This document shows, in pieces, positions 8,505 to 12,557 of a stretch of 35,715 nucleotides of DNA. Position 1 is the stretch's first letter. Every line of letters begins with the position of its first letter. The notes under the pieces are model-generated. The model saw only the letters and a list, made by a program, of their open reading frames with translations. It did no database searches and had not been told where the DNA came from. This stretch comes from an uncultured Cellulomonadaceae bacterium (lineage in GTDB: Bacteria; Actinomycetota; Actinomycetes; Actinomycetales; Microbacteriaceae): assembly GCA_913063365.1 (NCBI GenBank), contig CAJXYC010000002.1, positions 1 to 35,715 of the forward strand. Direction: 5' to 3'. Both the position numbers and the translations under genes were made by a program.

Positions 8505-9776
8505 ATGCGCTACCGGCTTGCCCTCGCCGTTGGTCGGTTGATCCGCCGGCTGGCCCGGGCACGAGGTGGTGGCTCGGCGTTTCCGGGTCTCGTCGCCCTG
8601 CGCATCGATCCGCTCTTTTTGGAGCACTCGATTGGGCAGCTTCCTGGGGGAGTGATGTTCGTGACCGGCTCCAACGGGAAATCGACGACGACGTCGATGA
8701 TCGCCGCGATTCTGCGAGAGCACGGGAAAAAAGTGTTCACGAATCCAGCGGGGAGCAATCTTCCGCAGGGTCTTGCCTCAGCGGTGTTGGCCGATGCCGA
8801 CCGGCAGGGACGACTCCCTGCAGACCTGGCTGTGCTAGAGGTCGATGAGGCGTATGGTCCTCAGATTGCACGACACATCCCACCCGCTCATTTAGTGGTG
8901 ACCAATTTGCAGTTGGATCAACTCAATCGATTTGGCGAGCCGGAGCGGGTGTGGCAGATGATGAGGGACGTTGCCGAGCGCACGTCGGCGACCTTGCTCG
9001 TCAACCAACGAGAACCAGCACTCGTTGCCCTAGGCGAGGGACTCGAGGTTCGAGTCGACACGGTGGATGTTGCACAGTCGCTGGTGGATCAGTCCGGGGA
9101 TTCGCTTGGCGCGGCAGAGCTATTCGACGAGCGCTCCACCGCCACCGCCAGCGGGGCGCCACTTGTCACTCTGGAATCCCGGGGAACACGCAGCGCCATC
9201 GTCTCGGATGATTCGTCTCGCCACGAGATTTCCCTGCCGGACGAGGGCCTCCACTGGGCAATTGATGCGACCGTTGCTCTTGGAGCATCTCGGATTCTCC
9301 TCGGCGAGCAATGGTCGTGGGATGCGGCAGTACAGGCGTTTGCGTCCTTGCCCGTGGTCTACGGCCGCGGCGAGACAGTCCAGTGGAAGGGCGTCGATAT
9401 CACCCTGTTGATGCAGAAAAACCTTCCGAGCATGAGAGCAAACCTCTCCACTGTGAAGACCCAGCCGGAGAGAGTCTGGGTGGCCGTTGACGAGGGAACT
9501 CCTGATCCCTCGTGGATCTTTGACCTGGATTTGGGGCCACTAAAGAGAATCGACGTGCTCTCAGGCACCAAGGCCCATCAGTGGGCCATGTTCTTGGCCT
9601 ACCGAGGGGTCGCAGTGGGAGCAGTCATTGACGACACTGCTCAGGCCATGGATTACTTCTCTCAGGCAGGCACTGCCCCAGTCACAGCCATCGTCAACTA
9701 CGAGCAAATGATGGCGGTAAGACGGCTGGCGGGACGGAAAGACCTGGAGGCCCGGGTGGAAAGTGGGACGTCGTGA
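8505..9776 (+). CDS. MurT-like Mur ligase family protein (DUF1727 C-terminal domain), cysteine-free variant
   Basis: P-loop VTGSNGKSTTTSMIAAIL, VLEVDEAYGPQI, TNLQLDQLNRFGE, C-terminal PDPSWIFDLDL. Translationally coupled to a GatD-like gene. No Cys in 423 aa. Confidence 0.85.
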   Translation: MRYRLALAVGRLIRRLARARGGGSAFPGLVALRIDPLFLEHSIGQLPGGVMFVTGSNGKSTTTSMIAAILREHGKKVFTNPAGSNLPQGLASAVLADADRQGRLPADLAVLEVDEAYGPQIARHIPPAHLVVTNLQLDQLNRFGEPERVWQMMRDVAERTSATLLVNQREPALVALGEGLEVRVDTVDVAQSLVDQSGDSLGAAELFDERSTATASGAPLVTLESRGTRSAIVSDDSSRHEISLPDEGLHWAIDATVALGASRILLGEQWSWDAAVQAFASLPVVYGRGETVQWKGVDITLLMQKNLPSMRANLSTVKTQPERVWVAVDEGTPDPSWIFDLDLGPLKRIDVLSGTKAHQWAMFLAYRGVAVGAVIDDTAQAMDYFSQAGTAPVTAIVNYEQMMAVRRLAGRKDLEARVESGTS

Positions 9777-10471
9777 CAACGCTCCGCATTGTGCGGCTAC
9801 TGCCGGACCTGCTCTCGATTAACGGGTCTCTGGGGAATGCAGAAATCCTCCAGGCTCGGGCCTCGTGGTGGGGCTGGAAGGTGACGGTCAAAGACGTCAC
9901 TGAGGGAGCCACATTCCCCACCTCTGCCGACATTGTTGTGATCGGCCATGGCACGTCCTCGGCGACAACCCGGGCGCTCGCCGCGCTCCACGCTTGGTCT
10001 CCGCACATCCGCTCGGTACACGACAAAGGAGCCGCGATTCTCGGCCTGGGGCTGGGCGGCGACCTTCTGGGCCAGTCCGTTGAGCTGCGTGACGAGAAGC
10101 TCGAGGGTCTCGGAATGACCCCACTCGATGCCGTGTTGCAGCACCATCACGTCTCCACCGAAGTGTGGGGCGTGGATAGCGAGGGCCGTGAAAGCGCTGG
10201 TTATCTGAATGACCTCACCCAGAGGCCGGCTAGTCCCACACCGCTTCTTACCCTTAGCTCTCCACCTTCGGTCTCCGGCGGTGAGGGTCACCACACCAAT
10301 CGGATCTGGGTGTCGGCGGTATCGGGACCACTGCTTGGCCTAAACCCCCATATCGCTGACGACATTCTCCGCTCCCGCGATTCGCTCCCGGAGCCAACCG
10401 AGCGGCATGCGGTGGCAGATGCTGCGGCTGCCAAGGCCAGGCAGGCTATTGCCGGGAGGCTTGGGGTTTAG
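9773..10471 (+). CDS. GatD-like (CobB/CobQ-type class I amidotransferase fold) protein, predicted catalytically inactive glutaminase
   Basis: Overlaps MurT-like stop by 4 bp. LRIVRLLPDLLSINGSLGNAEILQARASWWGW resembles GatD N-terminus; nucleophile-elbow region reads ILGLGLGGDLLG; C-terminal VSAVSGPLLGLNPHIAD aligns with YLHGPLLPKNPxLAD. No Cys in the protein. Confidence 0.8.
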   Translation: MTTLRIVRLLPDLLSINGSLGNAEILQARASWWGWKVTVKDVTEGATFPTSADIVVIGHGTSSATTRALAALHAWSPHIRSVHDKGAAILGLGLGGDLLGQSVELRDEKLEGLGMTPLDAVLQHHHVSTEVWGVDSEGRESAGYLNDLTQRPASPTPLLTLSSPPSVSGGEGHHTNRIWVSAVSGPLLGLNPHIADDILRSRDSLPEPTERHAVADAAAAKARQAIAGRLGV

Positions 10472-11508
10472 TCAGCCCACGTCCGCGGGATGTTCGCGCT
10501 CAAGTGGACGAGAACTTCGTCACCGATGGTTCCGCACCAGGTGGCCCACTGTTCCACCGGGACGCCTCCTCGGCCCAGCACGCAGACGCTATCCCCGGGG
10601 GAGATGGATACTCCAGTCGGCCGTTCGATCACCATGTGATCCACCTCGACCCGTTTGACCGGACAGATGTTGCCAGACACCGACAGAGCCGCCTCCGCCA
10701 CGATCGGAGCGAGGAGTCCGTGACCAGAGCCCACGGCCAAGGTGACCGTATCTCCATCAACGCTCATGACAGGCGCATGGAGCTGGAGGACTGGGTGAAA
10801 GCCGAGGTCTTCAGCACTTCTGTTCGAGAGAGGGCTGACACCGTAGGCAAGAATTCCTAAACGCACCATGTCCAACCTGGCCTCCGGTGCATCCACCAGG
10901 GCGTGAGAGGCGGCCAAATGAAGCTGGTCAGGAGTGAGACCCGCTTCTCTCGCAGCGGTAGCGGCCTGCTGTAGCCGCTGGAGTGCCACGCGGGTGCTCT
11001 CTTCAGAGGTATCCGACAGGTGCGACCAGACGGCATGGACACGAAGTCTTCCTTGGCCTTCTAGCTCTGCAGCCTGGGTCACGAGTGCTGGCCACTGTTC
11101 CGCAGTGGCGCCATTTCGGTTAAGTCCGGTGTCCACTTTGAGGTGAACGATGGCGGGAGAGCTGGATGCGTGCCGGGCAATGTCAGCCAGCTGGCCGTCT
11201 GTCGAGACGCCCAAGTGAACCCCAGCGTTGACGGCCTCGGTGTAGTCCTGTCCCGGGGCAAAAAGCCAGGCCAGCAGCGGAGTATCGGGAGCGAGAGTTC
11301 TCGCTAAGACGGCTGTGTGGAGGTCCAGCACGGCCAGTGCGTCCACTTCTTCAGCGATTGCCGCGGGGGTGATCAGGTCCATTCCGTGGCCGTAAGCGTT
11401 TGATTTGACCGCCAGCATGAGGTCAGTGTCTGGCCCGCAGAGCTGGCGCGCCCTCTCGATGTTCTGCGAGAAGGCCTGCCTCGACAGTGTGATGGAGGGG
11501 CCTGTCAT
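10468..11508 (-). CDS. Alanine racemase-like fold-III PLP protein (atypical active site)
   Basis: N-terminal PLP-Lys motif LAVKSNAYGHG, HLKVDTGLNRNG, VWSHLSD, MVRLGILAYGVSP. ATG 11508 overlaps the upstream stop (ATGA). C-terminal motifs divergent. Confidence 0.85.
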   Translation of the reverse strand: MTGPSITLSRQAFSQNIERARQLCGPDTDLMLAVKSNAYGHGMDLITPAAIAEEVDALAVLDLHTAVLARTLAPDTPLLAWLFAPGQDYTEAVNAGVHLGVSTDGQLADIARHASSSPAIVHLKVDTGLNRNGATAEQWPALVTQAAELEGQGRLRVHAVWSHLSDTSEESTRVALQRLQQAATAAREAGLTPDQLHLAASHALVDAPEARLDMVRLGILAYGVSPLSNRSAEDLGFHPVLQLHAPVMSVDGDTVTLAVGSGHGLLAPIVAEAALSVSGNICPVKRVEVDHMVIERPTGVSISPGDSVCVLGRGGVPVEQWATWCGTIGDEVLVHLSANIPRTWAD

Positions 11509-12158
11509 TTGTTGTTTCCCATCCGCACCACGCGCGGACCAATTCCGGCACCGAGCAGCGTCACCGGGCGTCCAGACCACTCCGCCCATTCGTCAATCGA
11601 GACCGACCCGCCCCAGATCGTCACCTCATCGCCAATCGCAGGGGTGTGGGATCCGGCGTCGAGAATGAGTTGATCCATGGCAATGCGACCGGCGATGGGC
11701 AGGCGAATGCCCTGCCAGTCGACTTCCCCTCCCACGGGATCAAGCCTCGGCACGCCGTCAGCAAACCCGATCGCAACCAACGCCAGTGTGGTGCCAGTCT
11801 CGGTGCGATAAAGCCCTCCGTAGGACACGTCCTCGCCGGCAGGCACCGATTTCACATTCACCACCCGAGCCGACAGAACCTGTCCTCCCGCGCGGTGTGC
11901 ATCGACAACCCATTCGTCAGACCCGGAGTCCACGGCTGTCAGCCCCTTAATGCTCACCCCGTCGTCGAGACGGGCGTGTGAGAAACCAAGTGTGGCGGCA
12001 ATGGCACCTACTTTTTCAACGCCAAACCCGTATGCGTCTGCGCGCAGATCGAGTGGAGCGTCGTTGCCTCGGTCGGCAATGAGGCTCAGTGCCCGCTCAA
12101 GGGCAGAGGCTGGGTGTTCCACCCAGCGAAGGAGCTCTTTAGCTTGCGTCTGCGACAT
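11505..12158 (-). CDS. Alanine racemase C-terminal-domain protein (truncated racemase paralog)
   Basis: APLDLRADAYGFGVEKVGAIAATLG followed directly by a C-terminal domain: DVSYGGLYRTETGTTLALVAIGFADGVPRLDP..IAGRIAMDQLILD..IGDEVTIWG. Start chosen at ATG 12158 (MSQTQAKELL); the ORF-track extension to 12314 overlaps the DUF7455 gene. Confidence 0.8.
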   Translation of the reverse strand: MSQTQAKELLRWVEHPASALERALSLIADRGNDAPLDLRADAYGFGVEKVGAIAATLGFSHARLDDGVSIKGLTAVDSGSDEWVVDAHRAGGQVLSARVVNVKSVPAGEDVSYGGLYRTETGTTLALVAIGFADGVPRLDPVGGEVDWQGIRLPIAGRIAMDQLILDAGSHTPAIGDEVTIWGGSVSIDEWAEWSGRPVTLLGAGIGPRVVRMGNNK

Positions 12159-12372
12159 CGCGCAGGCGGTGGGTCTCGTCGTGCCAGACGAGCGCCGTGT
12201 CCGCGAGAGATTCGCGGTGCTTATCTGCGTGGTGTGCGCAGAAGAGAAGAGCACCGGAGGGCAGAGTGACTCGGACGTAGGCCTGAGCGCCGCAGCTGTC
12301 GCAGTGGTCGCCAAAACCGAGCGGAGTCTCGGCCTCGACGGAGCTGTCGATGGTGGCTGCTGTCTGAGTCAT
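12139..12372 (-). CDS. DUF7455-like small zinc-ribbon-type protein
   Basis: MTQTAATIDSS..HCDSCGAQAYVRVTLPSGALLFCAHHADKHRESLADTALVWHDET; Cys/His motif typical of the actinobacterial family near parE. Start ATG 12372. Confidence 0.8.
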   Translation of the reverse strand: MTQTAATIDSSVEAETPLGFGDHCDSCGAQAYVRVTLPSGALLFCAHHADKHRESLADTALVWHDETHRLRDVADAS

Positions 12373-12557
12373 ACGTGCATCCCTTCTCGAACGGTTATGA
12401 CATTCCACCACGCCCACACCGTCTTTTCCTGCAAGGAGGGTCCTGTTTCGCCCTACGCGTAGTTTTCCCCGAGTTCTGTGTGGCGCAGGTTCAGGCAGAC
12501 ATGGGTTGTCTATTCTCAGGTGTGGCTCACACGCGAGCTTTATGGGGGAAGGTGTCT

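Follow-up and report, generated by a model that had tools for sequence, protein, structure and literature searches.

Introduction

Alanine racemase (Alr) is the textbook example of a homodimeric racemase and an antibacterial target. In each of its active sites the barrel of one chain meets the C-terminal domain of the partner chain, and the two catalytic bases are Lys39 and Tyr265' (PMC3485190, PMC3245724, PMC3146814). The substrate specificity of Alr is controlled by residue 354 (PMC3485190, PMC4517790). In the Microbacteriaceae the peptidoglycan is of B-type, with D-ornithine (D-Orn) or diaminobutyrate (Dab) in the cited cases (PMC10757982, PMC4156110). We found no heterodimeric, split or paralogous Alr described in the literature that we searched, which reached few subscription journals.

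Here we describe a locus in which a cell-wall racemase seems to be divided between two neighbouring genes, each lacking the half-site that the other has kept. We refer to the two genes as A and B and list them with their neighbours in Table 1, where "the window" means the whole stretch of 35,715 nucleotides that was analysed. Residue numbers are those of the Alr of G. stearothermophilus, in which we take Tyr265 to lie in KVSYGAT, Tyr284 in IGYADG, Met312 in CMDQ and Tyr354 in TINYE; residues were counted along its sequence, and the known landmark residues all match their published numbers.

Table 1. Features of the divided racemase locus (positions are those of the window unless a locus is named)
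Feature	Position	Strand	Basis or remark
MurT homologue	8505..9776	+	no cysteine at all, hence no zinc ribbon
GatD homologue, convergent with A (ends overlap by 4 bases)	9773..10471	+	catalytic Cys94 replaced by Gly, His189 by Ser
GatD without Cys94 next to the pair	window 9773-10471; L043, L049-L056, L076, L079, L100, L122, L159-L165, L197-L210, others	+ (window)
Gene A, 346 aa, Alr-family subunit	10468..11508	-	PLP barrel intact; folded C-domain without Tyr265, GYADG and Met312
Asp330 codon of A, position 354 (Tyr in canonical Alr; specificity position)	10519..10521	-	alignment; PMC3485190, PMC4517790
Lys35 codon of A, PLP Lys39 (AVKSNAYGHG)	11404..11406	-	alignment; Lys in 66/66 A proteins
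ATGA, stop of B overlapping start of A	11505..11508	-	sequence
Gene B, 217 aa, barrel remnant of ~90 residues plus canonical Alr C-domain	11505..12158	-	profile search, alignment, AlphaFold2
Tyr113 codon of B, catalytic Tyr265 (EDVSYGGLY)	11820..11822	-	alignment; Tyr in 66/66 B proteins
Arg39 codon of B, at the place of the PLP lysine (DLRADAYGFG)	12042..12044	-	alignment
DUF7455 gene upstream of B, same direction, 20-base overlap with B	12139..12417	-	profile search; neighbour kept in many relatives

Results

Gene A keeps the complete set of barrel residues, namely Lys39, Tyr43, Arg136, His166, Ser204 and Arg219. An earlier note on this DNA had described its product as an Alr-like protein that retains the PLP lysine and has lost the catalytic tyrosine, which agrees with our reading of the minus strand, in both the coordinates and the motifs that it quoted (AVKSNAYGHG, VDTGLNRNG, VRLGILAYG, AVGSGHGLL, VKRVEVDHM and TIGDEVL). 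The note was mistaken in placing Tyr265 in the GYADG motif, which holds Tyr284; Tyr265 belongs to VSYG, and A has neither tyrosine. The VSYG segment is deleted in A, GYADG is replaced, there is no CMDQ, and position 354 is Asp (TIGDEV). Arg136 is followed by Asn (NRNG); an Asn in this place is a mark of Lyr, Bar and BsrV, but many canonical Alr of actinobacteria have RNG as well. The protein scores 162.8 bits with PF01168 and 149.4 bits with TIGR00492, the NCBIfam Alr equivalog, which is below the cut-off of 168. The note was right to doubt that A by itself is an ordinary two-base alanine racemase. The AlphaFold2 model of A has a pLDDT of 95.3 and a pTM of 0.92, and it matches solved Alr chains with Z ~43 over 344 residues when compared to only the PDB chains top-ranked by Foldseek.

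The adjoining gene, which the earlier note had rightly singled out as a partner worth considering, carries the missing half-site. The last 125 residues of B are a canonical Alr C-domain (EDVSYGGLY, IGFADGVPR, GRIAMDQ) that keeps Tyr265, Tyr/Phe284, Arg290, Arg309, Met312 and Asp313, and the Pfam Ala_racemase_C model (PF00842) gives 100.7 bits on B versus 33.6 on A. The first 90 residues are the remnant of a barrel, in which the canonical VVKADAYGHG reads DLRADAYGFG; the PLP-barrel residue set is absent, and the greater part of the barrel has been lost along with the PLP lysine. B also falls below the TIGR00492 cut-off, with 95.0 bits. Its model has an overall pLDDT of 81.6, mostly 90-97 in the C-domain, and compares to Alr C-domains with Z ~20, again among only the PDB chains that Foldseek ranked at the top. 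The ATGA shared by the two genes suggests that their translation is coupled.

Since an Alr site pairs the barrel of one chain with the C-domain of its partner, A and B together possess one complete site and no more. Our main reading, to which we give a probability of about 85%, is that they are the two different subunits of an Alr-family, PLP-dependent amino-acid racemase that works only as a heterodimer and has one site per dimer. In such a dimer, A would supply the PLP barrel (Lys39, Tyr43, Arg136, His166, Ser204, Arg219 and residue 354) and B would supply the C-domain that closes it (Tyr265', Tyr/Phe284', Arg290', Arg309', Met312' and Asp313'), while the symmetric second site would be dead, with B contributing no barrel or lysine and A no tyrosine. 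Judging from the two sequences, the proteins would associate physically, bind PLP and act as a racemase. Most likely the missing Tyr is supplied in trans by B, and by analogy with Alr, two-base chemistry would be expected for the pair. Of the two departures that the earlier note had considered for A, a changed substrate is possible in view of the Asp at 354, and altered chemistry is probably wrong given that the tyrosine likely comes from B. We also rejected A as an independent enzyme with a new chemistry, the residues that it lacks being encoded next door. The pair should have the standard Alr fold and chemistry, and neither gene should be counted as a strict member of the family, in the sense of one polypeptide with both half-sites.

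To see how general this arrangement is, we counted 66 loci with separate A and B genes, having dropped one (L042, in G027) from 67. In L042 (2896-4356 and 3114-4325, plus strand) the canonical alr is frameshifted, perhaps by a sequencing error. In the A proteins Lys39, Arg136, His166 and Arg219 are each present in 66/66 and Tyr265 in 0/66. In the B proteins Tyr265, Tyr/Phe284, Arg290 and Met312 are each present in 66/66 and Lys39 in 0/66, this last figure being partly by construction in the loci found by our DNA pattern search, which selected for B without the lysine; the state of A and the Tyr265 of B were not selected by it. The loss of half-sites is thus complementary in all 66 loci read, and since the A proteins of all of them lack Tyr265, its absence from A is not a matter of chance.

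The DNA pattern of the B remnant matched 54 of 398 genomes of the family, in 17 of 78 genera, and the reversed pattern used as a control gave one match. All of the loci with a B signature that were read have an adjacent A or A half. Most genomes of the host's genus carry the pair, G005 (1,760,810 bp; matched to Pontimonas salivibrio CL-TW6, PMC6106888) among them, and it occurs in many other genera of Microbacteriaceae, with Microbacterium testaceum StLB037 (L080) and M. resistens among the matches listed. The same pair occurs in the complete genomes G005, G019, G024 and G033. A different situation was seen in an Amycolatopsis metagenome-assembled genome, where a single Alr homologue (L133, 3773-5041, plus strand) has Thr in place of the PLP lysine, Arg in place of Tyr265 and Asp in place of His166; it is possibly a dead Alr, and no partner was seen.

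Between close relatives within the genus, dN/dS ranges over 0.09-0.20 in A and 0.09-0.27 in B, and in every pair with a usable estimate it is lower in the barrel of A than in its C-domain and lower in the C-domain of B than in its remnant. Purifying selection acts on A as well as on B, and in each of them the half that is still of use changes more slowly, as a shared single site predicts.

In some genomes the two parts are joined. A-B single polypeptides of ~620-800 aa that keep Tyr354 are found at the housekeeping alr locus (glmS-acpS-tsaE) in genus g42, G109 and G087, and an A-B fusion is the only Ala_racemase_C protein that we found in G188, G061, G133 and G087, whose genomes are 99-100% complete. 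In G087 one 789-aa frame (L219, 2186-4552, plus strand) unites a barrel of the A type with a bare C-domain of Alr and with TsaE, and the only Ala_racemase_C hits found in that genome are those in this frame. A fusion in the reverse order, B-A with the C-domain first, has Glu at 354 and lies at a sigA-parE locus (L223, 3082-4866, minus strand). Together with the overlap of the genes, the natural A-B fusions lend indirect support to an A.B complex.

There are also genomes in which the separate genes have no canonical counterpart. G113 carries two split pairs but lacks a canonical alr. In the 927,303 bp genome G033, which may be Tropheryma whipplei Twist, the split pair accounts for the one PF01168 hit and the one PF00842 hit, and a D-Ala-D-Ala ligase (Ddl) is encoded that scores above its cut-off. 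A profile search of G033 gave no D-amino-acid transaminase (Dat) above its cut-off, and Dat was rejected as another source of D-Ala there, the best class-IV hit being an aminodeoxychorismate lyase. The sole-copy fusions, G113 and G033 speak for the divided form being a functional racemase.

Several loci look like stages on the way to the divided form. Two intact tandem alr copies, of which the second has Asp or Glu at 354, are found at glmS-acpS-alr-tsaE in L038, L039, L041 and Curtobacterium L084. G026 is intermediate, with an upstream partner of full length in which the PLP Lys has become Thr and other barrel residues are lost, and in other B partners (L037, L223) the barrel is gutted or gone. 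The pair would have originated from duplicated alr genes by complementary loss, leaving one active site per dimer. In a barrel tree made by a quick method, a single clade (SH-aLRT 99) unites all A proteins with Asp or Glu at 354 (D/E354) and the intact second copies, the latter nested in two places. The A-B fusions with Tyr354 group separately (98) among canonical Alr, and L225 and L219 branch elsewhere. From these separate clades, splitting most likely happened more than once. The tree of the C-domain has few columns and is poorly resolved, and it is not long enough for dating when B arose. A divergent intact Alr paralogue on a long branch was also noted in two genera (L060, 3125-4291, and L221, 2190-3356), grouped together with 100% support.

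In many genera the D/E354 pairs lie between murT-gatD and DUF7455-parE. The DUF7455 gene is near the pair in many genera, as in the window (12139-12417), and in L037, L040, L080 and L095 it is convergent with A instead. The MurT_C score of the MurT homologue in the window is under the Pfam cut-off, and the protein lacks the Cys4 zinc ribbon that S. aureus MurT has; because only a subset of MurT proteins have this ribbon (PMC6113224), its loss is not diagnostic. The host genome, which is 84% complete, also encodes a YggS-like protein and a LysA-like protein. The search for a separate canonical alr that the earlier note had proposed was successful: there is one at a glmS-acpS-alr locus, cut by the end of contig C36. 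The case that the note had named as speaking against its view, with this gene as the cell's only alanine racemase, does not apply to the host.

Discussion

What the pair acts on is a separate matter from how it is built. We lean towards a substrate other than alanine, for instance a D-diamino acid destined for B-type peptidoglycan, because of the Asp or Glu at 354, the canonical alr elsewhere in the same genomes and the MurT-GatD without a glutaminase site, and we consider this plausible but unproven. In its explicit form, which refines the heterodimer model and which we hold tentatively, at rather less than even odds, A.B would be a D-diamino-acid racemase (for ornithine, diaminobutyrate or lysine) serving the B-type bridge, and MurT-GatD would ligate an amino acid, not ammonia, to the alpha-carboxyl of D-Glu. 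Of the A proteins from separate pairs outside the housekeeping alr locus, 41 could be read at position 354, and all of these have Asp or Glu there; D/E354 barrels form one clade with the intact second copies. The A-B forms that keep the Tyr354 of canonical Alr sit at the housekeeping alr locus, and lysine-preferring racemases have lost Tyr354 (PMC3485190). A charged residue at the equivalent of 354 lowered alanine activity in AlrTt (PMC4517790), which would fit a weak enzyme as well as a new substrate. The walls of most species of the M. testaceum clade contain D-Orn (PMC10757982), and M. testaceum StLB037 carries the pair. However, G028 (1,430,433 bp; matched to Rhodoluna lacicola) has a D-Dab wall (PMC4156110) and yet a single canonical alr, a counterexample that weakens the idea that the pair is needed for D-Dab walls, and in G033 a pair with Asp354 is the only Alr, though Ddl is present.

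In every readable locus linked to A or B, Cys94 of GatD is absent, being replaced by Gly, Ala or Ser, and His189 is often lost too. The C94G and C94S replacements abolish the activity of the S. aureus enzyme (PMC6113224), and by its sequence the pair-linked GatD should not be capable of hydrolysing glutamine. However, the Cys94 position is Gly also in G020, G022, G025, G029 and G036, of which G020 and G036 each have only a canonical alr; the Cys is kept in G021 and G034.

We also regard it as possible, if somewhat doubtful, that A.B is a plain alanine racemase and provides a second source of D-Ala. Both proteins belong to the Alr sequence family, the split and fused forms with Tyr354 at the housekeeping locus include the sole Ala_racemase_C protein found in several genomes, and G033 needs D-Ala for its Ddl and has only the split pair. 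The change of residue 354 to Asp or Glu and the canonical alr that is present also in Pontimonas and in most of the pair-bearing genomes checked both speak against it. In a more inclusive picture, the locus would be a B-type peptidoglycan module, in which a one-site A.B racemase makes a D-diamino acid and a glutaminase-less MurT-GatD couples it to the alpha-carboxyl of D-Glu, and in other genera the housekeeping Alr would have been turned, independently and repeatedly, into split or single-chain asymmetric enzymes. Taken as a whole, we think this picture unlikely.

Two further explanations would do without a heterodimeric racemase. B, which has no PLP site, might be a non-catalytic regulator, a pseudoenzyme that activates or restrains A or the canonical Alr, and trypanosomatids are known to have dead paralogues that activate (PMC3663545, PMC5201418), but the residues that B keeps (Tyr265, Tyr/Phe284, Arg290, Met312) are precisely those that act in trans and precisely those that A has lost, and the two are joined in natural fusions, so that we consider a regulator improbable. 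That A and B are decaying pseudogenes, or one alr broken by assembly errors, might be suggested by the scores of both below canonical Alr models and by the frameshifted alr that does occur in some assemblies (L042), but it is hardly credible and was rejected given the complete genomes that carry the pair, dN/dS well below 1, two genes that are in frame with an ATGA overlap and neighbours that are conserved in many genera.

Comparison with known systems

On the evidence of its sequences, the heterodimeric single-site Alr is probably best filed as a variant that is recurrent in Microbacteriaceae. The loci form a natural series from one alr to tandem intact copies, a copy in which only the lysine is lost, gutted partners and single-chain fusions, and this series lays out how a symmetric enzyme can become an obligate heteromer by complementary loss within one active site. 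The link to a MurT-GatD without its catalytic Cys offers a testable entry to the making of B-type peptidoglycan bridges.

With Alr/DadX (fold type III, EC 5.1.1.1), the pair shares both domain folds, the PLP lysine and pocket in A, the Tyr265/Met312 set in B and the two-base logic across the dimer interface, whereas Alr/DadX is a homodimer with two equal sites and A and B have these residue sets in separate genes, with one site abolished. Strych and Benedik (2002, J Bacteriol 184:4321) are cited (in PMC3245724 and PMC3146814) as having concluded from an analysis of Alr mutants that the active unit is the dimer; their mutants were engineered, in contrast to the natural gene pair described here. 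Lyr, Bar and BsrV, which accept larger side chains, resemble A in having the Alr fold with Tyr354 replaced, but they are homodimers with Lys and Tyr intact, and they have Thr or Ala at 354 versus Asp or Glu in A. The trypanosomatid deoxyhypusine synthase and AdoMetDC are likewise duplicated homo-oligomers that became obligate hetero-oligomers when one copy underwent loss; in these enzymes the inactive partner is described as an allosteric activator, whereas A and B each lose the half-site that the other has kept.
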